Below are positions 6,664-21,457 of a DNA stretch of 24,645 nucleotides, piece after piece. Under the pieces are notes generated by a model that had not been told where the DNA came from, ran no database searches, and was given only the letters and a program-made list of their open reading frames with translations. The first letter of the stretch is position 1. Each line of letters starts with the position of its first letter. This stretch comes from a virus, in the IMG/VR virus record IMGVR_UViG_3300042868_003621, positions 1-24,645 of that record. The stretch is one strand, 5' to 3'. A program made the translations under genes and the position numbers.

Positions 6664-8109
6664 TCACGCGGCATAAGGGTTATAAGCCCTGTTTCGCGCT
6701 ATGTCGTCTGCGTGTGCGTAGTCTCTTGGTGGTAGTGGGTCCAACTGGAGCCACCCTGAGTCGCGCAAGACGCGGAGGGCCTGAGATAATGCGTCAACGT
6801 AGTCGTCGTGGCCCTTTGCTTCGGGAAAAGAACACACTTGGCGGATAAAACGCTTGGCCCATGGGGCTACCTCGCCCGGGTTTTCTGGGTCTTCGGGGAT
6901 ATACACCCGTCCTTTTGCAATCAGCGGCGCCACAATGTTCATCCTTTGCACCTTGTCTGCTCGTCCGGGGTTGTATGACCTCACCGGCAGGTGCGCGGCC
7001 TGCAACTCTTGGATCAAAGAGATGCCCGCCGACTTATCTTCCATGAGGATCAGGTCCGTTTTCTTGCCTTTTGCGAACGTGTTGTCCGCGCCGTACACAA
7101 CTTCCTTATAGTCCTCAATCACCTTGCGGCGCAACTCGGGGTACGACAGGTGGTTGTCCCACGCGTCAAGCAATATGCAACTTGTCGCGAAGTCATCTTG
7201 CTCGAACACACCTAGCGCGATGCACGCGGTTGGGTCGTTGTGTGTTTTCTCACTTGTTGCTGGGTCGTATGACACCAGCACGTACTCCAGTGTTGGTGTC
7301 GCCTTGTGCGCTGGCCAACTCCTGAACCACCTGCGCTTGACAATACCCGCGTTCTCGGGGTCCAAGATCTCGCCGTAGATCTCCTGCTTGCCCAAGTCTG
7401 TGCCCTCGTAGGCCTCAAGCTGTTTGAAGAACGTCGACGACAGGTTGGCCCTGTTGTCGTATGAGGAGGCTCTGGACACGTACACGTCGCCGCCCACCTT
7501 GCCCTCGTTCAGGTCTGTGATAAGTTCCAGTGGTTTTGGCGTGGTGGTGATGATCGACTGCACACGGGCTATGCGCGGGTCAGTCAGGCGCAGTGTGAAC
7601 TGAATCTGGTCGTACGCGTCGTCAATGTACTCGAACGCGCACAACTCGTCTGCCCACATGCCGTGCCACTGTGTACCCCGGAAGCGCTCTGGCTCAGACG
7701 CCGGGATGCCGCGGATCATGCTTCCATTCTTCAACGTCAACTCAAACAGCGACTTGTTGTAGTCCTTGATCAGCGAAGAGGGTATGATGTTCAAGAGGCC
7801 CGAGTCACCCTCGAAGCACGTTGCCCGAATGTCGTTTGATGTTGGCGCCGTCACCAACCAGCGGGTCTTGTCGTAGATTGCCGCGCGCAAGCCTAACCAG
7901 TTTGACGCCGTGTGCGTCTTGCCCGAACCCCGGCCGGCTAAAAGCAAGAAGGTATCGTACTCCCCGTCGTCCGGCTCTCGTTGGTGGGGCAGGGCTGTTA
8001 GCTCCCACCTCACCCGCCACAGTGCCAGATCCAGTTGCTCTTTGGGCCACCCCTTGTTCTGTTCGGCAAACGCCTTGAGTAGTTTTTGCTGTGTGTCGTT
8101 CATAGGCAT
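6664..8109 (-). CDS. terL: Terminase large subunit (packaging ATPase-nuclease)
   Basis: This 481-aa protein is the motor that pumps DNA into the head and cuts it. ATPase domain: Walker A AGRGSGKT (residues 58-65), Walker B MWADE (151-155), coupling motif ITTTPKP (187-193). Nuclease domain: acidic residues in VLVSYDPA (Asp282), LMEDKSAG (Glu357) and GHDDYVDA (Asp435/436). Length and motif order are normal, with no intein inserted. Translation could begin at 8109 (MPMNDTQ) or at the ATG at 8103. The latter forms an ATGA overlap with the upstream Hint-like gene and may be the real start. The long Hint-like ORF immediately upstream is unusual. Confidence 0.95.
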   Translation of the reverse strand: MPMNDTQQKLLKAFAEQNKGWPKEQLDLALWRVRWELTALPHQREPDDGEYDTFLLLAGRGSGKTHTASNWLGLRAAIYDKTRWLVTAPTSNDIRATCFEGDSGLLNIIPSSLIKDYNKSLFELTLKNGSMIRGIPASEPERFRGTQWHGMWADELCAFEYIDDAYDQIQFTLRLTDPRIARVQSIITTTPKPLELITDLNEGKVGGDVYVSRASSYDNRANLSSTFFKQLEAYEGTDLGKQEIYGEILDPENAGIVKRRWFRSWPAHKATPTLEYVLVSYDPATSEKTHNDPTACIALGVFEQDDFATSCILLDAWDNHLSYPELRRKVIEDYKEVVYGADNTFAKGKKTDLILMEDKSAGISLIQELQAAHLPVRSYNPGRADKVQRMNIVAPLIAKGRVYIPEDPENPGEVAPWAKRFIRQVCSFPEAKGHDDYVDALSQALRVLRDSGWLQLDPLPPRDYAHADDIARNRAYNPYAA

Positions 8110-8972
8110 ACTGTCAGGTACCCCTCGCTAACTAGGAACGTGTTGTTTGGGTCTGCGGTTTTAATGTGCACGCAGGGTCTAATGTCCACACTGGTAACGT
8201 GGGTAACCCTGCGCATCTCCTCGTACTGAGGCCGACGCACCGGCATTTGGTCTTCGACCAGTTTTAGGTTTGTCCTGAACACCATGTGGTACTGGTGTTG
8301 GTGTTGTGCAATCTCTGTCCTGATACCAAGGGACTCTGTCAAATTGTGGATTGACCTGAACAGCCTCAGGTTTTTAATGTTGAACCTGAACTTGGCTGAG
8401 ACGCGGCTGTGGCACTTTGGCCTAGATGCACATACCCCTCGGAGTATAGCCAAGCGTTGCTCAAACGACGAGAACAGGTACTCTTCTGGAATGTGGTCTG
8501 GTATTTTGCCGTACGACTCGATCAGCTTGGATGTGACCTTTGTACGTTTGTCTCTGTGCGGGTCCCCTATCCACATCCCCATGTCGTAGGGGTGCAGGGG
8601 TAGCGGTTTGGCTGTGGGCCTGATCGGGTAGCACGTTGGCATCCTACACCACCCCGTCTCAACGGTTGATAGGTTCTGTGGTGCGTAGATAGGGAGAATG
8701 TAATCTTCTCGGGTTGGGACCTTGCGCCCCCACTTGGACAGTGTGAAGAATGCTTTACTGTCGTACACCGGAATGCCGGTGCGGCTATCCACCACCAACG
8801 TCAGGCCGTCCTTGGTCCAAATCTTATGACACACCACCGGCGTGTACTCTTGGACAGAAACAACCTTGACTGGCAGGCCCGTGTAATCAAAAACCTCATC
8901 CCCCGGTTTGATGAACCGCGCTAACTGCCATCCGGCAGTGGTGGGAATGGGGGTACGTGCGTCGATTCCCAT
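8100..8972 (-). CDS. Free-standing intein-derived Hint/LAGLIDADG-like protein upstream of terL
   Basis: This 290-aa protein reads like an intein without exteins. Residues 3-28 (IDARTPIPTTAGW, then KPGDEVF) match splicing block A, and the end FLVSEGYLTVCL matches blocks F-G. The middle resembles a degenerate two-motif LAGLIDADG homing endonuclease (YDMGMWIGDPH at 129-139 and QRLAILRGV at 172-180, followed by a LFRSIHNLTESLGI-type helix). The usual splicing residues are missing: Gly2 replaces the N-terminal nucleophile, VVDS replaces the block-B T-x-x-H, and the C-terminal His-Asn pair is absent. Protein splicing is therefore unlikely. It is the first gene of the minus operon and overlaps terL, with only a weak AGGG ribosome site. 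Its present function is unknown. Confidence 0.7.
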   Translation of the reverse strand: MGIDARTPIPTTAGWQLARFIKPGDEVFDYTGLPVKVVSVQEYTPVVCHKIWTKDGLTLVVDSRTGIPVYDSKAFFTLSKWGRKVPTREDYILPIYAPQNLSTVETGWCRMPTCYPIRPTAKPLPLHPYDMGMWIGDPHRDKRTKVTSKLIESYGKIPDHIPEEYLFSSFEQRLAILRGVCASRPKCHSRVSAKFRFNIKNLRLFRSIHNLTESLGIRTEIAQHQHQYHMVFRTNLKLVEDQMPVRRPQYEEMRRVTHVTSVDIRPCVHIKTADPNNTFLVSEGYLTVCL

Positions 8973-9053
8973 GTCTAACCCTAATTACCCATGTACTTGG
9001 CTGTTTGTGCCCTACTCCAGTGGGGGGAGTATGTTGGCCCAAAAGTGGTGTTT

Positions 9054-9189
<136 letters not shown>

Positions 9190-9387
9190 TTTTTAAAATT
9201 GAGTACCCATGACGTCACAAATAACCACGCTGACAGTAGGGTTGCTATACTCCCGGGGGTATATTGTAAAAAAATTTAGGGAAAGCACTTTTCGGCGGAT
9301 TTGTAAAAAACTTGCTGTCTGTAGGGGCCCCCCGCCCCGGTTACCCGATGGGACCCTAAATGGGGTGTCGCTAAAAAACAACGCCCC

Positions 9388-9670
9388 CTAGCAAGTATCA
9401 TGCCAACTTGGACAGCATACCCATACTGGTAGGGGTACCCTGCATACCCTACTGGGTATAGTACCCACTCAGCGCGATACCCTACTGGGTATAGTACCCA
9501 CTCAGCGCGATACCCTACCCAGTACAGTATGCAGGCCAAGCAGGCACGGATCTTGCTAGCCAAGCAAGAAGCATGCCAACGTGGACATGGCACCGATCTT
9601 GCTATTAGCAAGAAGCATGCCAAGGCACACTGGCACGTATGTTGCTATTAGCAAGAAGCATGCCAACGTG
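9388..9670. repeat. Cluster of tandem and nested inverted repeats
   Basis: Two repeat families lie together. First, a 33-bp unit beginning ATACCCTACTGGGTATAG occurs at 9444-9476 and 9477-9509, with an 11-bp partial third copy at 9510-9520. Each unit contains the self-complementary stretches TACCC/GGGTA and GGGTATAGTACCC. The block is bracketed by an inverted pair, CCTGCATAC (9439-9447) and GTATGCAGG (9527-9535). Second, a unit of about 43-46 bp with the hairpin CTTGCTATTAGCAAG followed by AAGCATGCCAA starts near 9552, 9598 and 9641, with a diverged half-copy (GCAAGTATCATGCCAA) at 9391. It could be a structured RNA, an origin or a repressor-binding array. Confidence 0.75.
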
Positions 9671-9689
9671 GCAAAGTGCATGAAACTTT

Positions 9690-9708
9690 AATGAGAATGA
9701 TTCGCATC
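9690..9708. promoter_or_regulatory. Fur-box-like operator
   Basis: AATGAGAATGATTCGCATC fits the 7-1-7 Fur site. On the opposite strand TGCGAAT-C-ATTCTCA matches 11 of the 14 half-site bases of TGATAAT-n-ATTATCA. It overlaps a possible -10 hexamer, TTTAAT, at 9687-9692, and lies about 155 bp upstream of the first early gene. Fur is the host iron-responsive repressor. Control of a phage early region by Fur would be unusual, so this is a sequence resemblance only. Confidence 0.4.
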
Positions 9709-9717
9709 TAGGATGCG
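9703..9717. repeat. Short inverted repeat beside the Fur-like site
   Basis: CGCATC and GATGCG flank TAG, making a 6-bp inverted repeat that shares bases with the Fur-box-like sequence. It may be a second operator half or a small hairpin. There is no further support. Confidence 0.45.
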
Positions 9718-9751
9718 CACGCGAGGCCTATGTGGTGGTCTAGCGTCTTAC

Positions 9752-9769
9752 TCTAGTTGGCCAACTAGA
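9752..9769. promoter_or_regulatory. 18-bp perfect palindrome, candidate operator
   Basis: TCTAGTTGGCCAACTAGA is a perfect 18-bp palindrome in the leader of the early region, followed by a smaller one (GAACTAGTAGTTC near 9778). Perfect dyads of this size in a control region usually bind a dimeric repressor or activator. No repressor gene is recognised in the window, so the binding protein is unknown. Confidence 0.5.
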
Positions 9770-9807
9770 TGTTGTTGAACTAGTAGTTCGTCAACTGCGG
9801 ATACCAA

Positions 9808-9836
9808 TTCACCCCCAATTGACCATAGTAGTATCA
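9808..9836 (+). promoter_or_regulatory. Cassette leader, copy 1
   Basis: First of eight near-identical 28-29 nt elements (core CCCCCAATTGACCATAGTA, then GTATCA). It lies 55 nt before the ATG at 9863. The others start at 10055, 10401, 11087, 11875, 12293, 13133 and 14397. No correctly spaced sigma-70 -35/-10 pair is present. The TTGACCATAGTAG part distantly resembles SP6/T7-type phage promoters. It may be a phage promoter, a recombination-prone cassette boundary, or an RNA leader element. Confidence 0.75.
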
Positions 9837-9862
9837 GCAACCAAACCCCCAAGGAGCACAGC

Positions 9863-10054
9863 ATGCGCAAGATAGCAAACACAATCAACACAGCAACAGG
9901 CCACGAGACACGCGTCTATAAAGACGTCGAATGGAATGAGTACCGCGTCAAGCACTATGTCAACGGCCAACACTTGGTCGAGGCAGACTACCACACAGAC
10001 GACAAAGAAGAGGCCCTGCACCATGGTGCTGTGTGGCCGTTCAAGCCAAACTGA
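9863..10054 (+). CDS. Hypothetical 63-aa protein, first early cassette gene
   Basis: A small soluble protein with AAGGAGCACAGC before its ATG. The segment DVEWNEYRVKHYVNG followed by EADYHTDDKEEA resembles short phage proteins that I have seen without a known function, with a likely two-strand beta hairpin followed by a helix. No catalytic or metal motif and no membrane segment are visible. It follows cassette leader 1 and its TGA is directly abutted by leader 2. Being first after the control region, it is probably among the earliest expressed genes, which is inference. Confidence 0.75.
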   Translation: MRKIANTINTATGHETRVYKDVEWNEYRVKHYVNGQHLVEADYHTDDKEEALHHGAVWPFKPN

Positions 10055-10083
10055 TTCACCCCCAATTGACCATAGTAATATCA
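10055..10083 (+). promoter_or_regulatory. Cassette leader, copy 2
   Basis: Begins at the first base after the TGA of the preceding gene and lies 48 nt before the ATG at 10103. It has GTAATATCA where most copies have GTAGTATCA. AAGGAG follows. Confidence 0.75.
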
Positions 10084-10102
10084 CCAACCAAAGGAGCATT
10101 CC

Positions 10103-10360
10103 ATGATCACACTATTCAAGACAACATACGTGCCTGCCACTGACACAGAGGCCTGCTATTTTTTAGTCCAACGCATGGACGATTGGAGCAAGCCAGTGCG
10201 TTACTCTTACGAGTACAGCGCCAAGAATGCCGCACGTGCCGCGGCCTACCTGTGCGCGTCTGACCGTTCACCCGATTGGGCTCCAAACGACGAAGACGGC
10301 CTAGAGTATGTGGGCGCAGAGAAAGACGGCCTCACCTGCTATTTTGCAGTGAGCAAATGA
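10103..10360 (+). CDS. Hypothetical 85-aa protein
   Basis: A soluble mixed alpha/beta protein of unknown function. It has an AAGGAG site 7 nt before the ATG and is the only gene of cassette 2. Visible features are SAKNAARAAAYLCASD (probable helix), followed by the acidic stretch WAPNDEDGLEYVG and an ending TCYFAVSK. No family is recognised. The stop codon is followed at once by the 61-bp duplicated hairpin-plus-leader segment. Confidence 0.7.
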   Translation: MITLFKTTYVPATDTEACYFLVQRMDDWSKPVRYSYEYSAKNAARAAAYLCASDRSPDWAPNDEDGLEYVGAEKDGLTCYFAVSK

Positions 10361-10420
10361 TTGATGCGTGATGGCCTGCGTGCAGGCCATTGCAGATCAA
10401 TTCACCCCCAATTGACCATA
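10360..10420 (+). repeat. 61-bp direct repeat, copy 1 (hairpin plus leader start)
   Basis: Bases 10360-10420 recur exactly at 11046-11106. The segment carries the hairpin ATGGCCTGCGTGCAGGCCAT (10371-10390, 9-bp arms), then the first 20 bases of the cassette leader. The hairpin follows the stop codon of the 85-aa gene and could terminate or pause transcription, although no T run follows. An exact duplicate suggests recent duplication or recombination between cassettes. Confidence 0.85.
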
Positions 10421-10429
10421 GTAGTATCA
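10401..10429 (+). promoter_or_regulatory. Cassette leader, copy 3
   Basis: Consensus-type copy, partly inside the 61-bp direct repeat and 49 nt before the ATG at 10450. AAAGGAGCAAACC follows as ribosome site. Confidence 0.75.
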
Positions 10430-10449
10430 CCAACCAAAAGGAGCAAACC

Positions 10450-10659
10450 ATGAAAAACCTTATCGCATTTTCTCAGCGCATGCGCGCAATAGCCCACTAC
10501 TACCCAACCGAGTATGAAGTGGCTATATGGAATCCAACAACGCGACAGTGGTCAGGCATTGCAGTAAATTGCGATACCTGCTACGAAAAAGAGTTGGCCG
10601 CGGCCGCACTGGCCGACGGTGGCCGCATTTCCCGTCGCAACGGTTTCTTTACAAACTAA
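10450..10659 (+). CDS. Hypothetical 69-aa protein
   Basis: A small soluble protein. The start is the ATG after AAGGAGCAAACC. A longer in-frame ORF would run back through the cassette leader and is rejected. The sequence contains NLIAFSQRMRAIAHYYPTEY, then EVAIWNPTTRQWSGIAVNCD and an Ala-rich helix. The strand-turn-strand around the Trp residues suggests a beta hairpin, but no family is recognised. The next gene follows 10 nt after its stop, so the two probably share one transcript from leader 3. Confidence 0.7.
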   Translation: MKNLIAFSQRMRAIAHYYPTEYEVAIWNPTTRQWSGIAVNCDTCYEKELAAAALADGGRISRRNGFFTN

Positions 10660-10669
10660 GGAGCACAGC

Positions 10670-11050
10670 ATGATTAAATTCAGCAAGACAGTGCCGGACG
10701 GCCGGCACGTTACAGAGGCGCGTGATTGCACAGTGCGCGCACTGGCCCACGTGGCCGACATACCCTACAGCGAGGCACACGCGACCATGGCCGCATTCGG
10801 CCGCAAGCCACGCAAAGGTGTGCCTCGCATGGACGTGATCAGGGCCTACGCAAGCAAGGGCCTGACATACATCAAGCGCAACGACAGGCCAACATTGGCC
10901 CAATTTATGCGCGAGGATGGCGCCAAGCATGAGCGCCTAGTGATCAACAAAACCGGCCACGTGTTTGCCCTGATCAACGGCACGCAGTTGGACATGGCCA
11001 AGTGCGGACCACGTACCCGAGTGCAAGGGTATTACGTACCCGCAAATTGA
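10670..11050 (+). CDS. Papain-like cysteine-protease-fold protein (putative)
   Basis: This 126-aa protein shows a pattern common to small phage proteins of papain-like fold. Residues 19-26 DCTVRALA carry the candidate nucleophile Cys20 at the start of a helix. TGHVFALINGTQLDM (96-110) supplies candidate His97 with a polar residue (Asn103 or Asp108) in the following strand. The GRKPRKGVPRMDVI segment lies between. If active it would cleave a peptide or isopeptide bond, but many such phage proteins have no known substrate. The ATG at 10670 follows AAGGAGCACAGC. The 5' extension overlapping the previous gene is rejected. It is the second gene of cassette 3. Confidence 0.5.
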   Translation: MIKFSKTVPDGRHVTEARDCTVRALAHVADIPYSEAHATMAAFGRKPRKGVPRMDVIRAYASKGLTYIKRNDRPTLAQFMREDGAKHERLVINKTGHVFALINGTQLDMAKCGPRTRVQGYYVPAN

Positions 11051-11106
11051 TGCGTGATGGCCTGCGTGCAGGCCATTGCAGATCAATTCACCCCCAATTG
11101 ACCATA
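11046..11106 (+). repeat. 61-bp direct repeat, copy 2
   Basis: Exact duplicate of 10360-10420, including the hairpin ATGGCCTGCGTGCAGGCCAT at 11057-11076 and the start of leader 4. It begins within the last codons of the papain-like gene, whose stop (TGA 11048-11050) is supplied by the repeat. This again places the repeat boundary at a gene end. Confidence 0.85.
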
Positions 11107-11115
11107 TCAGTATCA
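11087..11115 (+). promoter_or_regulatory. Cassette leader, copy 4
   Basis: Variant copy reading CATATCAGTATCA at its 3' end. It lies 44 nt before the ATG at 11131, followed by CAGGAGAAACC. Confidence 0.75.
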
Positions 11116-11130
11116 ACAGGAGAAACCACC

Positions 11131-11874
11131 ATGAAAAAACCCACTGGCTTTGTTATTTATCGCGGACCCTCTTTGCTCGACGGCACACCCATTGTGGCCA
11201 TTGCCCTGCTGGGCTCCAGTAACCGTAAGACAGGCAATATGGTGCAGACATACATTCTGCGCGACGACATGCGTCCGACCTTGGCAGTGCAGACAGGCGC
11301 AGACAGCGCGATCTGCGGTAACTGCAAGCACAGACCATCGCTTGGTGGCGCGTGCTACGTGGTCGTGGCCCAAGGTCCTACAGTGGTGTTCAAAACCATG
11401 CAGGCAGGCAAGTACCCTGACGCACTGCCTGAAGACGTCGGCACACTGGTGGCCGGTCGCATGGTGCGTCTTGGCACGTATGGAGACCCTGCCGCAGTGC
11501 CTGCCTACGTGTGGCAGGACCTTACAGCACAGGCCGCAGGCCGCACAGGTTACACCCACCAATGGGCAAACGAGGCCCTGCCGATGGACCATCGCGCAGA
11601 CATTGCCAAGTTGACAATGGCCAGTGCGGACACAGTGGAAGAGGCCCAACAGGCACGCGCAAACGGCCTGCGATATTTTCGCATTCGCTTGGCCACCGAG
11701 GCCCTGCAAGATCGCGAATTTATCTGCCCTGCCTCAGAAGAGGCCGGCAAGCGCAAACTGTGTGACACATGCGGAGCATGCAATGGCACGACCAAGAGCA
11801 CAGGCGCAAGCCCAGTGATCATTGTCCACGGCAACAAGGCCCGACGTTTCAGCGAACAGCGCGCAAGCGCTTAA
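11131..11874 (+). CDS. Conserved phage protein with two cysteine clusters (DUF7227-like, tentative)
   Basis: This 247-aa protein is the largest in the cassette region. Visible marks are KTGNMVQTYILR (33-44), a first Cys group ICGNCKHR...GGACYV (Cys62, 65, 75), the stretch VVAQGPTVVFKTMQAGKYP, and a C-terminal group CPASEEAGKRKLCDTCGACNG split over Cys199, 211, 214 and 217. The C-x2-C-x2-C arrangement suggests a zinc or iron-sulfur site. The combination matches a widespread uncharacterised phage family that I recall as DUF7227; the number should be verified. Start chosen at the ATG after CAGGAGAAACCACC; an upstream in-frame start would cross the leader. No activity can be assigned. Confidence 0.65.
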   Translation: MKKPTGFVIYRGPSLLDGTPIVAIALLGSSNRKTGNMVQTYILRDDMRPTLAVQTGADSAICGNCKHRPSLGGACYVVVAQGPTVVFKTMQAGKYPDALPEDVGTLVAGRMVRLGTYGDPAAVPAYVWQDLTAQAAGRTGYTHQWANEALPMDHRADIAKLTMASADTVEEAQQARANGLRYFRIRLATEALQDREFICPASEEAGKRKLCDTCGACNGTTKSTGASPVIIVHGNKARRFSEQRASA

Positions 11875-11903
11875 TTCACCCCCAATTGACCATAGTAGTA
11901 TCA
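11875..11903 (+). promoter_or_regulatory. Cassette leader, copy 5
   Basis: Starts at the base after the TAA of the preceding gene. It lies 42 nt before the ATG at 11917, with CAGGAGAAAACC between. Confidence 0.8.
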
Positions 11904-11916
11904 ACAGGAGAAAACC

Positions 11917-12105
11917 ATGAAGACAATCACAATCACAGAGAAACAGTGGCGCGACCTAAACGTCAACCTGCTGTATGAAATGGCAGACTATTTGCTGACA
12001 GAGCACAGCGAGGCCCTGACACGCGAAGAGAAGACCGACACGCGCAACACGCTAAACGACGCGTTGCACCAGTACAGAAAAATCAAGGAGGCATTCAAAG
12101 CATGA
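11917..12105 (+). CDS. Hypothetical 62-aa helical protein
   Basis: A small, charged and apparently all-helical protein (ITEKQWRDLNVNLLYEMADY, then REEKTDTRNTLNDALHQYRK). No metal, catalytic or membrane motif is visible, and no family is recognised. It is the first gene of cassette 5 and couples by ATGA to a 31-aa membrane peptide that begins before its stop codon. Confidence 0.7.
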   Translation: MKTITITEKQWRDLNVNLLYEMADYLLTEHSEALTREEKTDTRNTLNDALHQYRKIKEAFKA

Positions 12106-12197
12106 AGTACCTTAGAGAATTTATCGAGGCCCTGATACTGGCCGCCATCATTGGTGGCCCGTTTTTCTACTATTTACTGTACGTAATGAAACCATGA
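12102..12197 (+). CDS. 31-aa predicted membrane peptide
   Basis: An ORF begins at the ATG of an ATGA overlap with the previous gene and ends at TGA 12195-12197. One hydrophobic segment, about residues 9-29 (EALILAAIIGGPFFYYLLYV), would span the inner membrane, with charged residues before it and a short KP end. AAGGAGG lies upstream inside the previous gene. Small membrane peptides of this type in phages may act in lysis, superinfection exclusion or host takeover, but nothing here decides. It couples by ATGA to the next small gene. Confidence 0.6.
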   Translation: MKYLREFIEALILAAIIGGPFFYYLLYVMKP

Positions 12198-12292
12198 AAA
12201 ACTGGCCATTCCCCCCATTCCCAAACCCCAAAGACAAGGGCACCAAAGTGCCCCGATTCAACCCCGATAATTTCGAGGACGCGCCCTTTTAA
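12194..12292 (+). CDS. 32-aa proline-rich protein ending in an SSB-like C-terminal tail
   Basis: Starts by ATGA overlap with the membrane peptide; its TAA is abutted by leader 6. The protein has a Trp/Pro/Phe-rich start (MKNWPFPPFPNP), a basic middle (KDKGTKVPRF) and ends FEDAPF. An acidic residue followed by x-Pro-Phe at the very C-terminus is the hallmark of bacterial SSB, whose tip DDDIPF binds many repair and replication proteins. A second cassette protein ends EEFEDIPF. The tail could compete with or imitate SSB for host partners such as exonuclease I, RecO or PriA, which is inference. The protein is too short to be an SSB itself. Confidence 0.6.
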   Translation: MKNWPFPPFPNPKDKGTKVPRFNPDNFEDAPF

Positions 12293-12321
12293 TTAACCCC
12301 CAATTGACCATAGTAGTATCA
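12293..12321 (+). promoter_or_regulatory. Cassette leader, copy 6
   Basis: Starts directly after a TAA stop and reads TTAACC instead of TTCACC at its 5' end. It lies 47 nt before the ATG at 12340, with CAGGAGCACACC between. Confidence 0.8.
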
Positions 12322-12339
12322 ACAACACAGGAGCACACC

Positions 12340-12615
12340 ATGACACTGCAACCATACACAAGCCACGTCAATGGCTTTATCCACTACAAGCACATGGCCG
12401 AGACGGCCGCCAAGGCCGCAAACAGTGCCGCACATGGCGTGTGCGTTACTGTGGACTACTTCAACGGAGAATATAAGTTCGTCATTTGGACCTTGGCGCC
12501 CAAAGTGCGCGACGGCCTGATTAAGCACGAATTATTCGCAGAGACCACAAACCAAGAGCGCCTAAATGCGCACGTTATTGGTTTTGCCCAACAATACGAA
12601 AGACACTTACCATGA
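12340..12615 (+). CDS. Hypothetical 91-aa protein
   Basis: A soluble alpha/beta protein: an Ala-rich helix (HMAETAAKAANSAAHG), a strand pair (VCVTVDYFNGEYKFVIWTLA) and a C-terminal helix. No known family is recognised. The start follows CAGGAGCACACC; an in-frame ATG within the leader is rejected. It ends in an ATGA overlap with the next gene and is the first gene of cassette 6. Confidence 0.7.
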   Translation: MTLQPYTSHVNGFIHYKHMAETAAKAANSAAHGVCVTVDYFNGEYKFVIWTLAPKVRDGLIKHELFAETTNQERLNAHVIGFAQQYERHLP

Positions 12616-12806
12616 GAAAATTTCCACTGTACATCATTGACAGAGCAGGCCAGTTCACGACGCAAGAATTCCCATCGTACGAGGAGCAGTGCGCGGCCGC
12701 GGACAAGTGGGAGGCCGATGGCCACGAGACCTACTTTAACTACCTTAACGCGGTCCTGCGTTACGACCACTACAAACGATTCGACAAAGCACAAGGAGCA
12801 AAATAA
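12612..12806 (+). CDS. Hypothetical 64-aa protein
   Basis: A small acidic-to-neutral protein (KFPLYIIDRAGQFTTQEFPS, then YEEQCAAADKWEADGHETYF and a basic end). It is tightly coupled: ATGA overlap at its start, and a TAATG overlap at its end that shares one base with the next gene. AAGGAG near the end serves the next gene. No motif or family is recognised. Confidence 0.65.
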   Translation: MRKFPLYIIDRAGQFTTQEFPSYEEQCAAADKWEADGHETYFNYLNAVLRYDHYKRFDKAQGAK

Positions 12807-13132
12807 TGAACGCGCACCAATCAGCATACGAGCAGGGCAAGATGGACAAGTGGGACCGCATCACGCGCACCATGGACGAAGTGAGAGCACACCACGAGGC
12901 CGGCAAGTACGTGGTGATTTTCGAATCCCTGTCTTACTGCCCCTACACCGACGCGCCCATGGGCACCATGCCCCACGTGCTCAAGGCCTGCAAGACACGT
13001 AAAGAGGCCGAGGCACTGGTCAACGACTACTTTGAAGAGAATATCGACCACGACGTGTGGGACGTTTACATCTACCCAAAGTACAAAGCGCCTAAACAAT
13101 CAACAGAAGAATTTGAGGATATCCCTTTTTAA
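12806..13132 (+). CDS. 108-aa protein ending in an SSB-like tail (EEFEDIPF)
   Basis: The N-terminal part (about residues 1-95) is an unrecognised alpha/beta domain with an AYEQGKMDKWDRITRTMDEV helix, the strand YVVIFESLSYC and a KTRKEAEALVNDYFEEN helix. A charged linker (KYKAPKQST) then leads to the C-terminus EEFEDIPF, nearly the tip of E. coli SSB (DDDIPF). The codons differ from those of the FEDAPF tail at 12272-12289 (for example GAT versus GAC and CCT versus CCC), so protein-level constraint is plausible. The tail may recruit host SSB-binding proteins. The stop is abutted by leader 7. The start follows AAGGAGCAAA. Confidence 0.7.
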   Translation: MNAHQSAYEQGKMDKWDRITRTMDEVRAHHEAGKYVVIFESLSYCPYTDAPMGTMPHVLKACKTRKEAEALVNDYFEENIDHDVWDVYIYPKYKAPKQSTEEFEDIPF

Positions 13133-13160
13133 TTCACCCCCAATTGACCATAGTAGTACA
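13133..13160 (+). promoter_or_regulatory. Cassette leader, copy 7
   Basis: Starts directly after the TAA of the SSB-tailed gene. It is one base shorter at the 3' end (GTAGTACA) and lies 50 nt before the ATG at 13183, with AGGAGCAAACC between. Confidence 0.8.
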
Positions 13161-13182
13161 ACCAACCAAATAGGAGCAAACC

Positions 13183-13536
13183 ATGAACAGAACATATTGG
13201 ACAGGCCAAGGCCGCTACCAAGCGCAGGCCGACGCGTTAGAGAAGCTTCTGCCCATCGTGGGCGAGGTGGAGGACGGCAAGGGCGCCAACAAGCACCTAG
13301 AGGCATTCAGGCGCGCAGTTAACTGCTACTATGACCTGTACAACAACGGCCTGTGCAACAGGGCACGTGAGTTCAGCACAGTGTTCAAAATTACAGGCGT
13401 GGCCAAAGAGATTAAAGCACGTCGGTGGATGGACAGCATGCTATCGATGGACACACAAGAGCGCATCGAGGACAAGATGGGCCTGTTTATACTGGCCGCG
13501 TTTCAAGAGCAATTTGCAGAGGAGACAACAGCATGA
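13183..13536 (+). CDS. Hypothetical 117-aa helical protein
   Basis: Mostly helical and soluble. Visible stretches are YQAQADALEKLLPIVGEVED, HLEAFRRAVNCYYDLYNNGL, and EFSTVFKITGVAKEIK, followed by an amphipathic C-terminal helix (LFILAAFQEQFAEE). The pattern resembles small conserved phage proteins without assigned role. It follows leader 7 and AGGAGCAAACC and ends in an ATGA overlap with the next gene. No catalytic residues stand out. Confidence 0.7.
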   Translation: MNRTYWTGQGRYQAQADALEKLLPIVGEVEDGKGANKHLEAFRRAVNCYYDLYNNGLCNRAREFSTVFKITGVAKEIKARRWMDSMLSMDTQERIEDKMGLFILAAFQEQFAEETTA

Positions 13537-13775
13537 GCACGACCAAAGAAAATGTTGTGGTGTGGTTTGGCATGATGACACATGGCCAGTTTGGCGTGAC
13601 AGAGCACGACATTGAGCCCATGGTGATCATTCATTCAATCGACAACAAGGCCATCATGGACCCCGACGAGATCGAGGACTACATGGCCCTGCGCCATTAC
13701 GACAGTTATTTAATCCCGTCCCAGTTTGTGGGGTACGTCACATATTCGTCAGACTACATAAGGAACCTACCATGA
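13533..13775 (+). CDS. Hypothetical 80-aa protein
   Basis: The start is the ATG that overlaps the previous stop; a longer in-frame reading from 13425 is only open reading in the preceding gene. The product has a beta-rich N-terminus (NVVVWFGMMTHGQFGVTEHD), an acidic middle (DPDEIEDYMALRHYD) and a short beta end (VGYVTYSSDYIR). It is probably a small beta-domain protein. No family is recognised. AGGAGAC lies ahead of the start, and it ends by ATGA overlap with the next gene. Confidence 0.7.
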   Translation: MSTTKENVVVWFGMMTHGQFGVTEHDIEPMVIIHSIDNKAIMDPDEIEDYMALRHYDSYLIPSQFVGYVTYSSDYIRNLP

Positions 13776-14101
13776 TTAAAGTAGATAAATACAACGTGCG
13801 CATTGTGCGCGCAGGCGACCGGTACGGCCGCGATTTTTGCCTGACCCACGACAAAGAGGACCAACCATTGGTCGAGTTCTATGACAGCCGGTACCCTCAC
13901 ACCGAGTACGGCCAGTTTGTCAGCCGGTACTACGTGGCAACGATCCTAGGCACCGACCGGTGGGGCAGTGGCGAAGGCGCCCTGATCCTAGACGGTGGCA
14001 ATCGCGCCCAATGGACGGTCAGCGAAGAGGACATGAAAACAGTTCGCAATTATTTAAAAGAGGAGACGAGCGATGCAAATCATTCATATTACGGGGCCTG
14101 A
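13772..14101 (+). CDS. Conserved phage protein of unknown function (109 aa)
   Basis: Recognisable elements are VEFYDSRYPHTEYGQFVSRY, followed by YVATILG, ALILDGGN and the ending WTVSEEDMKTVRNYL. The GQFVSRYYV and WTVS...M..V..YL pattern recurs in short phage proteins of unknown function, which I recall only in general terms. The predicted fold is beta-rich with a C-terminal helix. It starts by ATGA overlap and overlaps the next gene by 29 nt, longer than usual here. The next gene's AGGAGACG site lies inside it. Confidence 0.7.
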   Translation: MIKVDKYNVRIVRAGDRYGRDFCLTHDKEDQPLVEFYDSRYPHTEYGQFVSRYYVATILGTDRWGSGEGALILDGGNRAQWTVSEEDMKTVRNYLKEETSDANHSYYGA

Positions 14102-14396
14102 AAAGCAGACAGTGGCCTACAAGCATTTGGTCGACCACATGTTGGCCAAGGGTTTCACCATTTCAGTGTTTGATGGTGAGGAGTGGCAGGTTAAGCGATC
14201 GACCGACGCAAAGGCCATCGACGAGGCCATTCTGTCGGTGGAGGAGGCCGAGTTGTCGATTCGCGACAAGGACAACAAGAGCCAAGGGTGGGCGCGAGTG
14301 AGTGCTTACGGGCTTGAGCCGGACGAAACGGTCATGGACAACACCATGACTGACGCAATGAACGAGTGGGACGGTGCGTACGACGCCATGCCCTAA
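14073..14396 (+). CDS. Hypothetical 107-aa protein, last of cassette 7
   Basis: An acidic alpha/beta protein (IIHITGPEKQTVAYKHLVDH, then MLAKGFTISVFDGEEWQVKR, and an IDEAILSVEEAELSIRDKDN helix). The KHLVDHMLAKGFTISVFDGEEW segment looks like a helix-strand-strand unit. The C-terminal part (ETVMDNTMTDAMNEWDGAYD) is strongly acidic. No family is recognised. AGGAGACGAGCG precedes its ATG inside the previous gene. Its TAA is abutted by leader 8. Confidence 0.7.
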   Translation: MQIIHITGPEKQTVAYKHLVDHMLAKGFTISVFDGEEWQVKRSTDAKAIDEAILSVEEAELSIRDKDNKSQGWARVSAYGLEPDETVMDNTMTDAMNEWDGAYDAMP

Positions 14397-14424
14397 TTCA
14401 CCCCCAGTTGACCATATTAGTACA
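14397..14424 (+). promoter_or_regulatory. Cassette leader, copy 8
   Basis: Most diverged copy (CAGTTGACCATATTAGTACA). It starts directly after a TAA stop and lies 40 nt before the ATG at 14437, overlapping the ribosome-site region AAAGGAG. It begins the longest cassette, of ten genes. Confidence 0.75.
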
Positions 14425-14436
14425 AAGGAGCAAACC

Positions 14437-14691
14437 ATGAAAAAGTTACAGAAATTTATCAAAGCAGAGAATGATTGGCGCAAGTTGTTTGGCAACAGCG
14501 AGTTGTCAATTGACACCCCCGAGGGCAGACAGCAGGTGGCAGAGTTGATCGACATTCAACTAAGCCCCGAGAACCTGTACTGTGATGGCGAGATCAGCCA
14601 CACAGAGGCACAGATGAAGTACCGCATGTTATCAGGCGCGGCCAAAGACCTGATGAAGATCGACCCCAACGTAGTTATTTATGAAATCTAA
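14437..14691 (+). CDS. Hypothetical 84-aa helical protein
   Basis: Start at the ATG after AAAGGAGCAAACC; an earlier in-frame ATG would run through the leader. A small helical protein with LQKFIKAENDWRKLFGN, DTPEGRQQVAELIDIQ and a C-terminal HTEAQMKYRMLSGAAKDLMK helix. No motif is recognised. The next gene begins 10 nt beyond its stop and its AAGGAGCAAACC spans the stop codon. Confidence 0.7.
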   Translation: MKKLQKFIKAENDWRKLFGNSELSIDTPEGRQQVAELIDIQLSPENLYCDGEISHTEAQMKYRMLSGAAKDLMKIDPNVVIYEI

Positions 14692-14701
14692 GGAGCAAAC
14701 C

Positions 14702-14968
14702 ATGAACAGCAATGAATTAGCGTCTATCGTGGCCGAGTCAAACGGCCGTTTTGTCAGCGTCGTGTTTATCAAGAAAGACGGCACACAGCGAGCCATGCTC
14801 TGCCGATTGGGTGTTACAAAACACCTAAAAGGTGGCGAGTCAAAGCTGAACGCGGACCAGTACTTAACTGTGTTCGACGTGCAGAAAGAGGCCTACCGAG
14901 CCATCAACCGCGACACAATAGTGTCGGTCAAGTTGGCAGGCACGACATACACACAGGAGGCCACATGA
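14702..14968 (+). CDS. SH3-barrel-like conserved phage protein
   Basis: This 88-aa protein closely resembles a widespread family of short phage and prophage proteins. Shared elements are NGRFVSVVFIKKDGTQRAM, CRLGVTKHLKGGESKL, YLTVFDVQKEAYRAINRDT and IVSVKLAG. The alternating beta pattern is compatible with a small SH3-type barrel that could bind nucleic acid or protein; the activity is unknown. Start after AAGGAGCAAACC. It ends by ATGA overlap with the next gene. The family resemblance is from memory and the fold is inference. Confidence 0.7.
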   Translation: MNSNELASIVAESNGRFVSVVFIKKDGTQRAMLCRLGVTKHLKGGESKLNADQYLTVFDVQKEAYRAINRDTIVSVKLAGTTYTQEAT

Positions 14969-15186
14969 TCGAGTACAAGATTGATAGAACCTGCGACGGC
15001 TACGACGTGTTCTTTGACGGCCGGCCTGTTGGGTGGATGTCATTTGGCGACCTGAGACAGTTACCCGACGACAGGCGCCCTGTGACCATGTTACGCATGG
15101 ACAAGGGCACCAAGTACCATGCCAGTTTATCTGCCGCAAAACAGTACATTGAGACAGTTTACCAACGAGAGGAGCAATCAACATGA
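14965..15186 (+). CDS. Hypothetical 73-aa protein
   Basis: A small alpha/beta protein with a beta-rich start (YKIDRTCDGYDVFFDGRPVG), followed by FGDLRQLPDDRRP and a C-terminal helix (SAAKQYIETVYQREE). No family or catalytic motif is seen. CAGGAGG precedes the ATG, which overlaps the previous stop. It ends by ATGA overlap. Confidence 0.7.
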   Translation: MIEYKIDRTCDGYDVFFDGRPVGWMSFGDLRQLPDDRRPVTMLRMDKGTKYHASLSAAKQYIETVYQREEQST

Positions 15187-15524
15187 CAGTAGTAGCAAAA
15201 CAGCACCAAGACAACCGCGTGGAGGTTTTGGTCGGCAAAGACAACGGGTGGGTGGCAGTGCACCTGTCATTGGGCACACTGTGGGTGGAGGTGTACGACC
15301 ACAACGACAACCCGATCCACATTTACAAAGAAGAATGGCCCGAGGCGCCCAAACGCAAGTTCAAGGTGCGCGCGTCGTACAGTGCCATGTGTGAGGCGGA
15401 GATCGAGGCCAACAGCCTAGACGAGGCCTACGAGTTGGCCAAGAAGTTAGACGGGTCATCATTCGACACACACTGCGACCCCGACGACTGGCACATCGAA
15501 GACGTGTGGGAGGCACAACGATGA
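15183..15524 (+). CDS. Hypothetical 113-aa protein with a DpnD/PcfM-like C-terminal half
   Basis: The N-terminal half is beta-rich (NRVEVLVGKDNGWVAVHLSL, then TLWVEVYDHND). The C-terminal half, KFKVRASYSAMCEAEIEANS then LDEAYELAKKLDG and DWHIEDVWE, has the strand-helix-strand pattern of short DpnD/PcfM-type domains, in which a repeated beta-alpha unit covers about 45 residues. The match is weak and no activity follows from it. AGAGGAG precedes the start and it ends by ATGA overlap with a basic 53-aa ORF. Confidence 0.65.
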   Translation: MTVVAKQHQDNRVEVLVGKDNGWVAVHLSLGTLWVEVYDHNDNPIHIYKEEWPEAPKRKFKVRASYSAMCEAEIEANSLDEAYELAKKLDGSSFDTHCDPDDWHIEDVWEAQR

Positions 15525-15682
15525 AAACCCACATTTTGAAACATGTACGTTCACTTTTCGTACGCGAAATGGTACCTATGAGTACCGCAAGGCACAACAT
15601 GCGCCAGTGGGTCCGCTCGGTGCGTTTGTTGGGTGACAAGCATTTACTGGCCGTCAAAGTGGCCAAGAAGGAGAAACCATGA
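15521..15682 (+). CDS. Small basic protein (53 aa)
   Basis: The ORF opens with an ATGA overlap and closes with an ATGA overlap to the next gene. It is strongly basic (KTHILKHVRSLFVREM, then RHNMRQWVRSVRLLGDKH and KVAKKEKP), so it probably binds nucleic acid or an acidic protein surface; this is inference from charge alone. It has about four Met residues that could act as alternative starts. No family is recognised. The ribosome site is weak (GGAGG upstream in GTGGGAGG). Confidence 0.55.
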   Translation: MKTHILKHVRSLFVREMVPMSTARHNMRQWVRSVRLLGDKHLLAVKVAKKEKP

Positions 15683-15891
15683 TCATTAACGACGTACCGA
15701 CACACTTTACAAATAATCACGCAGTCAGCATGACCCTGCGTGACTACTTTGCGGCGGAGGCCATGAAGCCGTTGACGCAGAGTTTTCTTGACAAAGACAT
15801 GGACATGCTCGACCCCAATGGGTGGATGGATGGCCTTGCTATGGACGCATACTCTATGGCAGACGCAATGATGAAAGCGAGGACAGAATGA
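15679..15891 (+). CDS. Conserved small phage protein (RDYFAA family)
   Basis: This 70-aa protein has VSMTLRDYFAAEAMKPL followed by AMDAYSMADAMMKARTE. The combination T-x-R-D-Y-F-A-A-x-A with a C-terminal A-D-A-M-x-x-A-R helix is frequent in short proteins of many phages and prophages. Its role is unknown. AAGGAGAAACC precedes the start, which overlaps the previous stop, and the end overlaps the next gene by ATGA. Confidence 0.75.
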   Translation: MIINDVPTHFTNNHAVSMTLRDYFAAEAMKPLTQSFLDKDMDMLDPNGWMDGLAMDAYSMADAMMKARTE

Positions 15892-16106
15892 GATCGTTAG
15901 AAGACTACAACATTCGCGACGTGGCCGAGTACCTGCGCGACTGGGGTTACGTGGTGACGGCCCCTGCCGACGCAGGTGACGGCCTGTGGGTGAGCCAAGA
16001 GCAGTTGGCAGACATTGAGCGCCTGCTAATCTGCGGCCAAAAAGAGGCCGCGCAGAACGACATGTTTGACTTATTAGGGAAAACCCTTAATAGGAGTATG
16101 ACATGA
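15888..16106 (+). CDS. Hypothetical 72-aa protein
   Basis: A small acidic helical protein (SLEDYNIRDVAEYLRDWGYV, then WVSQEQLADIERLLICGQKE and AAQNDMFDLLG). The order helix-turn-strand-turn-helix might be a compact alpha/beta unit. No motif is recognised. The start overlaps the previous stop and is weakly supported by GAGGAC; the end overlaps the next gene by ATGA. Confidence 0.65.
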   Translation: MRSLEDYNIRDVAEYLRDWGYVVTAPADAGDGLWVSQEQLADIERLLICGQKEAAQNDMFDLLGKTLNRSMT

Positions 16107-16321
16107 TGAAAGAACCCACACGATTCACACTGGAAGACCAAATCATGGAGTGTTGGGGTGTCGTGGACGACCTAGACATGATCTACAGCACCGAGGCCCT
16201 GTACGAGGACCAAGACCGCATGATGAACGTCCTGCTAGGCATGCAGGAGTTGTACAAGATTCGTTTTGAACGTTTGTTTAACACATTTGAGCATTTAGTC
16301 CATGAAGGGAAGGTCACATGA
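16103..16321 (+). CDS. Hypothetical 72-aa helical protein
   Basis: Helical and acidic (FTLEDQIMECWGVVDDLDMI, then LYEDQDRMMNVLLGMQELYK and FERLFNTFEHLVHEG). Long amphipathic helices suggest a coiled-coil or small helical bundle, like many short phage proteins that count or bind other subunits. No family is recognised. The ribosome site TAGGAG lies 8 nt before the start. Confidence 0.65.
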   Translation: MMKEPTRFTLEDQIMECWGVVDDLDMIYSTEALYEDQDRMMNVLLGMQELYKIRFERLFNTFEHLVHEGKVT

Positions 16322-16473
16322 TACGCATACACGTCGCTTATAACGCTGTGGCAGAGCAGTGGGTGGTTTGGGCAGGGTCAGGCCCACAGTACTTTGGAAA
16401 CTCGCGCCTAGAGGCCATTGAGGCCTTTACGGCCCATTTACCACCCGAAACACCGGTCAGGGTGGTGTACTGA
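16318..16473 (+). CDS. Small hypothetical protein (51 aa)
   Basis: The ORF starts at the ATG of an ATGA overlap and ends at TGA 16471-16473, which overlaps the next ATG. The product is mixed (IRIHVAYNAVAEQWVVWAGS, then RLEAIEAFTAHLPPE and a VRVVY end), compatible with a beta-strand pair, a helix and a final strand. GGGAAGG precedes the start. No family is recognised. ATGA coupling at both ends is the main evidence that it is coding. Confidence 0.6.
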   Translation: MIRIHVAYNAVAEQWVVWAGSGPQYFGNSRLEAIEAFTAHLPPETPVRVVY

Positions 16474-16571
16474 TGGTACTAGCAGGCTTATTTGGCGTAC
16501 TGGCCCTGTGGGCGGCCCAACAACCGCGGTGGGCGGTGGTTTTACTGGCTGTGATCTGTTACTTTGACTAA
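16473..16571 (+). CDS. 32-aa predicted membrane peptide, last gene before element copy 2
   Basis: Starts within the stop of the previous gene (TGATG) and ends at TAA 16569-16571, directly before the inverted-repeat element. Two short hydrophobic stretches (MVLAGLFGVLALWAA and WAVVLLAVICYF) are separated by QQPR, so it could be a helical hairpin in the membrane. No family is recognised. Confidence 0.55.
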   Translation: MVLAGLFGVLALWAAQQPRWAVVLLAVICYFD

Positions 16572-16572
16572 A

Positions 16573-16708
<136 letters not shown>

Positions 16709-16722
16709 GCGAGGACCAAAAC

Positions 16723-16932
16723 ATGGCACGACAAGACATTAAAAAGACCGGATGGCCCGAGGGGTTATTGCAGGACGACGATGGTAGACTGAGCAGGTGG
16801 TTTGCAAGCAGGCCCGACGCGAGGTATGTATTGAAACGAAATTTGGAGAAACAAAATGAAACTGAGAAAAACGAGCGAGGCGTTCCGAGTGGCCAAGAAT
16901 TACCTGAACAAGGGCAATCAGGACAAGACTGA
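16723..16932 (+). CDS. Hypothetical 69-aa protein, first gene right of element copy 2
   Basis: The ATG follows GCGAGGACCAAAAC, a modest ribosome site. The N-terminal part (RQDIKKTGWPEGLLQDDDGR, then LSRWFASRPDARYVLKRN) looks like a small basic protein. The last 25 codons lie inside the next gene in another frame and are low-complexity Glu/Gln/Gly-rich, so that end may carry little information. The 77-nt overlap is unusual for this genome. No family is recognised. Confidence 0.5.
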   Translation: MARQDIKKTGWPEGLLQDDDGRLSRWFASRPDARYVLKRNLEKQNETEKNERGVPSGQELPEQGQSGQD

Positions 16933-17173
16933 CTATATCTGCGCGGCTATTGGTGACGCAGAGGACGACAAATTAGTGACAATCAAGGCGGCAAATCACG
17001 CAAGGTGGGTAATTGGGTCACGACTGAGAGACAACGCGACGGTCACGAGTTGGTTAAAAGAGCAAGGGTTTATACCTAGATACCAAAACTCCTACAATAA
17101 CAAGCAGGTACAAGCCTACCGACACCGGTGGCTTGATGCCCTGATTAAAGAGTTTGAAGCAAAGGGAGACTGA
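16856..17173 (+). CDS. Hypothetical 105-aa protein
   Basis: A soluble basic-acidic helical protein. Stretches include KTSEAFRVAKNYLNKGNQDK, YICAAIGDAEDD, HARWVIGSRLRDNATVTSWL and a C-terminal helix RHRWLDALIKEFEAKGD. The SEAFRVAKNYL start and RHRWLDALI end look like small phage proteins of unknown function. The start follows TTGGAGAAACAAA. It ends 1 nt before the next gene's ATG. No catalytic motif is seen. Confidence 0.65.
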   Translation: MKLRKTSEAFRVAKNYLNKGNQDKTDYICAAIGDAEDDKLVTIKAANHARWVIGSRLRDNATVTSWLKEQGFIPRYQNSYNNKQVQAYRHRWLDALIKEFEAKGD

Positions 17174-18165: not shown

Positions 18166-18329
18166 AACTATACGACGTACCGAGAAACAGCACGATCATT
18201 TTACAAAATGGCGAGGAGTTGGAGTTCAAGCACATTGACGGCATGTACTCTTACTGTGTGACCAAAGAGGGCAACGTGGTGCACTTGGCCGCGTGGTCCG
18301 AGGTTAAAGTTAAAGAGCCTGAACAATGA
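18162..18329 (+). CDS. Small hypothetical protein (55 aa) before the sigma factor
   Basis: The ORF opens in an ATGA overlap with the previous gene and ends in one with the sigma factor gene. AAGGAAAC precedes its ATG. The product is a short beta-rich polypeptide (YDVPRNSTIILQNGEELEFK, then MYSYCVTKEGNVVHLAAWSE), looking like a minimal SH3-like or Sm-like beta fold, which is a guess. Translational coupling to the sigma gene may make it part of that expression unit. Confidence 0.6.
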   Translation: MKLYDVPRNSTIILQNGEELEFKHIDGMYSYCVTKEGNVVHLAAWSEVKVKEPEQ

Positions 18330-18850
18330 GACGACAGCTACTGACAGCGCAGGAGGAGATCGACCTACACCACAGGATCGTGCAGGGTGACGAGGAGGCC
18401 CACGAGGCCTTGGTGGAGGCCAACATGGGCCTTGTGGTGTACATTGTGCAGAAGTTGCCGCAGTGGGACATGACGGGGAGCATGACACGAGACGACCTAC
18501 TGCAGGAGGGCTACATTGCCCTGATGAAGGCCGCACACAGGTGGAAGCCGCAGGGAAGGTTTGCAAGCTACGCGCGCACACTGATCAAGAGCCAAGTGCT
18601 CAGAGCCATTGAGAACAAGGCCCTGCTGATCCACGTGCCGGTGGCGGTGCAGGAGGACCTGCGCAAGATCAAGCGGGTGGAGACCGAGTTGGCCCAAGTG
18701 CTCAACAGGGAGCCAACCACCAAAGAGGTGGCCAAGCTGACAGGTTTGTCAGAGCAACGCGTGCGTGATAGACTGGTGGTGAGTCAGAGGCAACCGGTGT
18801 CACTAGACGCGTACAAGAAAGACCAAGTAACGGAAGAAGACTATGATTGA
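18326..18850 (+). CDS. Phage RNA polymerase sigma-70-family factor lacking region 4
   Basis: This 174-aa protein has region 1.2-like sequence at residues 6-40 (LTAQEEIDLHHRIVQGDEEA), region 2 at about 40-100, including DDLLQEGYIALMKAAHRW and GRFASYARTLIKSQVLRAIE, and a region-3-like segment at about 105-155 (VETELAQVLNREPTTKEVAK, then LTGLSEQRVRDRL). There is no region 4 helix-turn-helix for the -35 element; the protein ends with an acidic tail. It should bind host core RNA polymerase and recognise -10 or extended -10 DNA, steering transcription to phage genes, as phage sigma factors such as that of phiEco32 do. The start overlaps the previous stop. It overlaps the next gene by 8 nt. Confidence 0.9.
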   Translation: MRRQLLTAQEEIDLHHRIVQGDEEAHEALVEANMGLVVYIVQKLPQWDMTGSMTRDDLLQEGYIALMKAAHRWKPQGRFASYARTLIKSQVLRAIENKALLIHVPVAVQEDLRKIKRVETELAQVLNREPTTKEVAKLTGLSEQRVRDRLVVSQRQPVSLDAYKKDQVTEEDYD

Positions 18851-21254: not shown

Positions 21255-21457
21255 AGGCAATACTTGAGTTCGAGTACCCCGACGACGAGGACAAACTGCG
21301 ATACGCACTGCACGGGCAGGACGCGATCTTTGCGTTGCTGGACATATCGGAACAACTGCGACTGCACTACAAGTACGAGGCAGACGGCAACCAAATACTA
21401 GCCAACATCAACGAGTTGGTCATCGAGGCCTTAAAACTGTGTCAGGAAATGGGATGA
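21251..21457 (+). CDS. Conserved small phage protein (68 aa, KAILEF type)
   Basis: MKAILEFEYPDDEDKLRYAL followed by HGQDAIFALLDISEQLR and a LANINELVIEALKLCQEMG helix. Short phage and prophage proteins often begin with KA-x-LEF-x-x-P-x-D and contain a long DI-x-x-x-LR helix. The role is unknown. The start overlaps the previous stop. The next gene overlaps by ATGA. Confidence 0.7.
   Translation: MKAILEFEYPDDEDKLRYALHGQDAIFALLDISEQLRLHYKYEADGNQILANINELVIEALKLCQEMG

Follow-up and report, generated by a model that had tools for sequence, protein, structure and literature searches.

A repeated two-part leader element before the early gene cassettes of a phage: a candidate promoter module with a genome-specific half

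The leader element and its eight copies

The virus record IMGVR_UViG_3300042868_003621, analysed here over its full length of 24,645 bp (the window), contains an element of about 31 nt, ATTCACCCCCAATTGACCATAGTAGTATCA, in eight copies spanning positions 9807-14425 and lying throughout on the + strand. The cores lie at 9812, 10059, 10405, 11091, 11879, 12297, 13137 and 14401 with 0-2 mismatches each, whereas the chance expectation was 0 (100 dinucleotide shuffles), and no further copy was found elsewhere in the record. All eight copies named by the original prediction, which had been made from the letters of the window, were present. They are as follows:

9807-9836 (+): element copy 1, left block ATTCACCCCCAA, core TTGACCATAGTAGTATCA
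10054-10083 (+): element copy 2, begins on the A of the upstream TGA
10400-10429 (+): element copy 3, hairpin unit ahead
11086-11115 (+): element copy 4, core variant CATATCA, hairpin unit ahead
11874-11903 (+): element copy 5, begins on the upstream TAA
12292-12321 (+): element copy 6, ATTAACCCCC, begins on the upstream TAA
13132-13161 (+): element copy 7, begins on the upstream TAA
14396-14425 (+): element copy 8, CCCCCAGTTGACCATATTA, shortest leader, AAGGAG starting where the conserved block ends

The distance from the element to the ATG is 40-55 nt, as had been described, and AGGAG or GGAG lies ahead of each start. It had also been claimed that five copies begin at stop codons; indeed, at 10055, 11875, 12293, 13133 and 14397 the upstream stop (TGA or TAA) coincides with the start of the element. 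If the first C of CCCCC is taken as base 0 of the element, the last A of these five stop codons is base -5, which is invariant in 82 of 82 copies collected from the window and from related IMG/VR contigs. In this set, chosen with no more than 4 mismatches in bases 0-18, the conserved stretch runs from about -6 to +24 and the invariant bases are -5, -1 to 5, 8-14, 18, 20 and 24. Since the selection used bases 0-18, invariance outside them is the stronger evidence; the last conserved base, +24, is A in all 82 copies. A scan of bacterial genomes gave two matches, neither in a plausible context, and single matches in unrelated viral contigs stood in other contexts, with no Shine-Dalgarno (SD) site and ATG downstream.

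One half shared, the other specific to each genome

The original prediction had proposed a search of related phages, and relatives were gathered by a terminase search (terminases 77-89% identical). The element was found before their early genes, on one strand and just ahead of an SD site and ATG, as in the window. The right half, TTGACCATAGTAGTATCA, is common to phages with terminases up to ~23% apart, but in the leaders of this type before the early genes of relatives the left half is another one. The window has AATTCACCCCCAA, five of the six copies of G013 have AATTCACCCCGAG, and further left halves are:

L161: ACCCCCACCCGAA
L164: ACCCCCCTGCCAA
L170: TAAATGGTGCCGT
L172: TAAGCCCTACAGT
L212: TTACATGTACGGA

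For an identity statistic, sites were picked solely by the core and a following SD site, and the left block was defined as the 13 nt left of TTGACC. Left blocks were 95% identical within genomes vs 41% between genomes, cores 89% vs 80%, and the DNA farther upstream 31% vs 26%. The difference of the left block within and between genomes was 0.54, the maximum in 1000 label shuffles being 0.115. A left block that is uniform in each genome and different between genomes is expected of sites read by a phage-specific trans-acting factor.

The core is also found at larger distances. The exact 16-nt core ACCCCCAATTGACCAT occurs before early genes in all three copies of the distant relative G012/G017, in which the sigma factor described below is 60% and the terminase 85% identical to those of the window and most early-region genes have no match. 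G012 (L093/L094) and G017 (L128/L129) are same-sample IMG/VR contigs with a 123-nt overlap and appear to derive from a single genome. The second copy in G012 (21409-21467; L094 10409-10467) lies inside a 25-nt inverted repeat, TGGTCAA/TTGACCA, so that TTGACCAT points both ways. In the more distant L174, L176 and L184 the TTG is lost and ACCA-AGTA-like cores are kept, each with its own left block.

Putative transcription start, promoter type and a phage sigma factor

After base +24 the element gives way to an A/C-rich leader that reaches the SD site, T+G falling from ~0.6 in the variable core columns to ~0.1; such a switch in composition directly past the core is expected at a transcript start. 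In copy 8 and its orthologues, which have the shortest leaders, AAGGAG directly follows the A at +24, so that a start farther downstream would remove the SD site.

The statement that no correctly spaced sigma-70 motif is present was borne out. Promoters of this type (TTGACA, 16-18 nt, TATAAT) are depleted in 8950-17000, with 0 found vs 6.3 +/- 2.4 in shuffles; TTGACC is present, with nothing at the correct spacing, and some other start signal is therefore needed. The suggested likeness to SP6/T7-type promoters was not supported, as only a few bases are alike to SP6 and no RNA_pol (PF00940) gene was found in the relative records searched, by a search in which the T7 positive control worked. These records reach 53 kb (G003) and are fragments, hence the absence is not absolute; the large genes scanned in G003 all have other assignments. 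Element copies, when folded, showed no consistent fold, and a pairing of TGATGC, 5' of the hairpin, with GTATCA of the core in the fold of copy 3 was discarded as impossible at copies without a hairpin.

The earlier remark that the window holds no RNA polymerase gene still stands, but a sigma factor gene had been overlooked:

18326-18850 (+): sigma-70-family factor with regions 2 and 3, 174 amino acids, stopping where region 4 would begin

Regions 2 and 3 are recognised by Pfam (E 8.5e-11 and 6e-11) and the protein by PHROG 351 (1e-31); its predicted model (predicted local distance difference test 80) matches solved sigma factors. Every large contig with the early-region element that was tested has the gene; in the reference relatives RW and MW202545 no sigma gene was found and no element copy was seen. 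This factor may be the reader of the core. Caulobacter phage RW (L217), which is without the sigma gene, has a different repeated leader motif, TGCAACTAA..GCTTGCAA, before its early genes.

As for the carrier phage, the 53-kb contig G003, a relative of the window, encodes DNA polymerase A, ribonucleotide reductase, an Enc34-type single-stranded DNA-binding protein, an exonuclease and a SNF2-type helicase, and further a D5-type primase, a T4-type terminase, portal, capsid, internal virion and collagen-like tail proteins. Because of this gene content the group is probably lytic, and it is probably podovirus-like; a non-exhaustive protein scan revealed no recognisable integrase or repressor. The closest cultured relatives are the Caulobacter phages RW, GB2A, RLK and KcrB (capsid 65%, terminase 41-42%). 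Before the terminase gene of the window, a 290-amino-acid open reading frame (ORF) at 8100-8972 (-) matches terminase PHROGs and is 44% conserved in G012; by eye it reads like a free-standing intein (Hint) remnant.

Structured RNAs at the cassette borders

A hairpin unit, which the original prediction had not described, stands directly 5' of two of the eight copies in the window (10401 and 11087), where it is perfect, and of many copies in relatives, while the other copies abut a stop codon.

10360-10403 (+): hairpin unit, outer stem ATTGAT/ATCAAT, 2x2 internal loop, inner GGCCTGC hairpin
11046-11089 (+): second copy of the same hairpin unit
9752-9769 (+): hairpin TCTAGTTGGCCAACTAGA upstream of copy 1, with CTAGACGATCGTCTAG near this place in several relatives

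In the covariation analysis of the hairpin unit 98% of cells were paired and four pairs had compensatory double changes; the outer stem changes in step from ATTGAT/ATCAAT to AATAAT/ATTATT, and in the inner stem GGCC is exchanged for GCCC/GGGC. In relatives the unit is also seen ahead of gene 6 with no element beside it. The hairpin of the window matched no Rfam family at curated cut-offs and has no CUGANGA/GAAA core, so it was rejected as a hammerhead.

Hammerhead ribozymes were found at the same cassette borders in L174, L176, L182, L194 and L197 (terminase ~79%), directly before the SD site or before the element, and in these relatives they seem to mark the borders. They were detected by a core search with pair counting, having been missed by the default filters of Rfam; the Rfam hit, to RF03152, had E=0.9, below its cut-off. 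All 11 copies have every catalytic-core base (CUGANGA/GAAA/UH) amid three stems, with 16 of 16 pairs intact, ten of them with compensatory changes; those of L174 are at 9815, 10141, 10965, 11256 and 11687 of the reverse complement. Hammerheads are known from all domains of life (PMC3088659). Judging from its position, the hairpin of the window may do the job of the hammerheads by another route, e.g., RNase III cleavage.

Gain, loss and exchange of cassettes

The genes behind the first four copies are:

9863-10054 (+): cassette gene behind copy 1, 63 amino acids, phrog_7884
10103-10360 (+): cassette gene behind copy 2, 85 amino acids
10450-11050 (+): two-gene cassette behind copy 3, 69 and 126 amino acids, the second being phrog_3754
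11131-11874 (+): cassette gene behind copy 4, 247 amino acids, phrog_2554, located elsewhere in most relatives

With gene families numbered, the 247-amino-acid gene at 11131 being family 6, the order in the window, G007 and G010 is [element]5, [element]1-2, [element]6, and in the other relatives that span the stretch it is [element]5, hairpin only, 6, [element]1-2. Both the cassette of the 247-amino-acid gene and the cluster-17 gene sit at different places among relatives; the presence of cassettes 17, 20 and 18/24/21, and of the element before genes 4 and 8, varies by genome. Regions of homology to the window have their ends at 11029/11876, 11872-12292, 12288-13132, 13163-13172 and 14387-14392, mostly in a leader or hairpin. 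Since BLAST ends are drawn towards shared repeats, these ends support breakpoints at the element or hairpin without being decisive. The view of the original prediction that leader, ribosome site, gene(s) and stop form modular units agrees with these cassettes gained, lost and swapped among relatives. Its proposed comparison of cassette order revealed reordered gene blocks with breakpoints often at the element or hairpin, and the many breakpoints at these places speak for the analogy it had drawn with the promoter-plus-stem-loop cassettes of T4-type phages.

Two further features were noted. A 139-nt inverted repeat (91%) at 9054-9192 and 16570-16708 brackets the whole cassette region, each arm forming a hairpin round a 27-28 nt poly-A/T run with TTCAGGGTG repeats; it recurs in almost every close relative, and at both ends in contigs that reach across them. 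The divergent intergenic region at 9380-9680 has iteron-like repeats, ATACCCTACTGGGTATAGTA... and AGCAAGAAGCATGCCAACGTGG, similar to iterons in G012, and is a candidate replication origin.

Discussion

From the sequence comparisons, we consider that the element is a promoter/leader module whose core would be read by RNA polymerase with a phage sigma factor and whose left block would be read by a phage-specific factor, a reading to which we give a probability of roughly 0.55. The right half would be the part used by RNA polymerase, most likely host core enzyme with the region 2-3 sigma factor encoded by the phage; transcription would start at about the last core base, the invariant A at +24, and yield a short A/C-rich leader with the SD site. 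The left 13 nt may be a phage-specific address for a phage-encoded DNA-binding partner, which could stand in for sigma region 4. Each copy would start one small cassette, the border hairpin, or the hammerhead ribozyme in relatives, would process or end read-through RNA, and the repeated borders would let cassettes be swapped.

Several observations weigh against this reading. Strong core matches are limited to the first (early) operon in G000, G003 and G012/17, with none ahead of the genes for replication, sigma or structural proteins. This is unusual for a promoter that relies on a phage sigma, as immediate-early genes normally need the host sigma; weak matches near the threshold at structural genes (two in G003, one in G017) were treated as chance. 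The core has no unambiguous -10, as either CATAGT or TAGTAT could serve. G027, G030 and G034 have the sigma factor with a core that is changed or unseen, and no clear DNA-binding family was recognised when the window proteins were searched for a regulator binding the left block. Finally, in copy 3 of G017 the ATG comes almost immediately after base +24 and the upstream ORF reads through the element.

The restriction to the first operon past the divergent regulatory region, where early genes lie, would fit an early promoter read by the host RNA polymerase with a housekeeping or alternative sigma, the left block being read by a host- or phage-specific activator and the phage sigma serving late genes. 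TAGTAT and CATAGT resemble a -10, and the cassettes of T4-type phages use early promoters; against this stand the absence of sigma-70 matches in 8 kb vs 6.3 expected and a left block that varies between related phages, unlike a -35. We regard this explanation as rather unlikely. An element that acts in a polycistronic mRNA, as a processing site or the site of a translational regulator, with no transcription start of its own, would be directional and close to the SD site, as observed; RNA-acting hammerheads at the borders of relatives and an upstream ORF able to read through point the same way. Such a role is nevertheless improbable, given the lack of a consistent fold in the element copies folded, its sharp contrast in composition with the leader behind it and the independent occurrence of hairpin and element.

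Asymmetric sites in a single orientation with a genome-specific consensus among related phages recall the stoperators of Cluster A phages (PMC6550527), and a phage repressor or anti-superinfection protein on the left block might silence competitors or time expression, as L5-type stoperators do. The strict coupling to SD and ATG and the shared right half require a second function, however, and together with the non-exhaustive scan that recognised no integrase or repressor they make an operator very improbable. Hardly credible is an origin of the repeats without any function of their own, by cassette duplication and homogenisation by gene conversion: moving cassettes do have breakpoints at the repeats, and variants are common to the copies within one genome, but past the left block the identity within a genome falls to background, the core persists from genome to genome though the left block changes, and non-homologous cassettes carry the element.

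The preferred reading, a promoter read with a phage sigma, can be compared with known systems. In T7-like phage promoters the upstream half varies between phages and the start-site half is kept; the element shares with T7/SP6 promoters a contiguous signal so divided, and differs in its conserved end base, A and not G, and in the absence of a single-subunit RNA polymerase gene from the relatives searched. Since no polymerase gene was found, we do not class it as a T7-type promoter. The promoter early stem-loop (PeSL) cassettes of T4-type phages (Arbiol 2010, Comeau 2014; described in PMC4503421) likewise have a multi-copy promoter-like signal and a stem-loop between small variable early genes and show modular shuffling, and genes are shuffled between relatives here as well. 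The element was not filed as a PeSL because the test for an early promoter of the sigma-70 type gave none; moreover, the promoter is putative, the hairpin is missing at most copies of the window, the left block is genome-specific and the phage is not T4-like.

In phiEco32/7-11 a phage sigma reads a contiguous 9-bp motif, TAATGTATA (PMC4331800). A phage-encoded sigma-70-family factor and a contiguous motif without a -35 before genes are features in common, but our element is longer (~31 nt), in two parts and present in the first operon only, with no strong match before middle or late genes in G000, G003 and G012/17, and the sigma as its reader is what we infer. With the Cluster A mycobacteriophage stoperators (PMC6550527) it has in common asymmetric one-orientation sites of genome-specific consensus, and it differs in its coupling to gene starts and in having a shared core attached, in a phage that looks lytic and in which no repressor was found among the proteins scanned. 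The available text of PMC8707807 reports that intergenic repeats of halovirus HF2 are promoters by reporter assay; they too are short, repeated and conserved in position within the virus genus, whereas HF2 is an archaeal virus with AT-rich promoter motifs, and that text reports no genome-specific block.

Tentatively, we propose that a universal core and a phage-specific address, turning over in concert across the copies of a genome and possibly read by a truncated phage sigma with a co-evolving partner, could keep the transcription of co-infecting relatives apart, even as cassettes with the promoter and a self-cleaving or structured RNA at their borders shuffle. A phage that lacks an RNA polymerase has to redirect the host enzyme, and the question arises how promoter specificity shifts at many sites together. 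In the dozens of related contigs considered here, half of the signal is kept and the other half is replaced wholesale per genome, which makes the co-evolution of regulator and site directly testable. The region would also be a non-T4 case of modular shuffling of the promoter/stem-loop type, in which hammerhead ribozymes may be an alternative cassette border.

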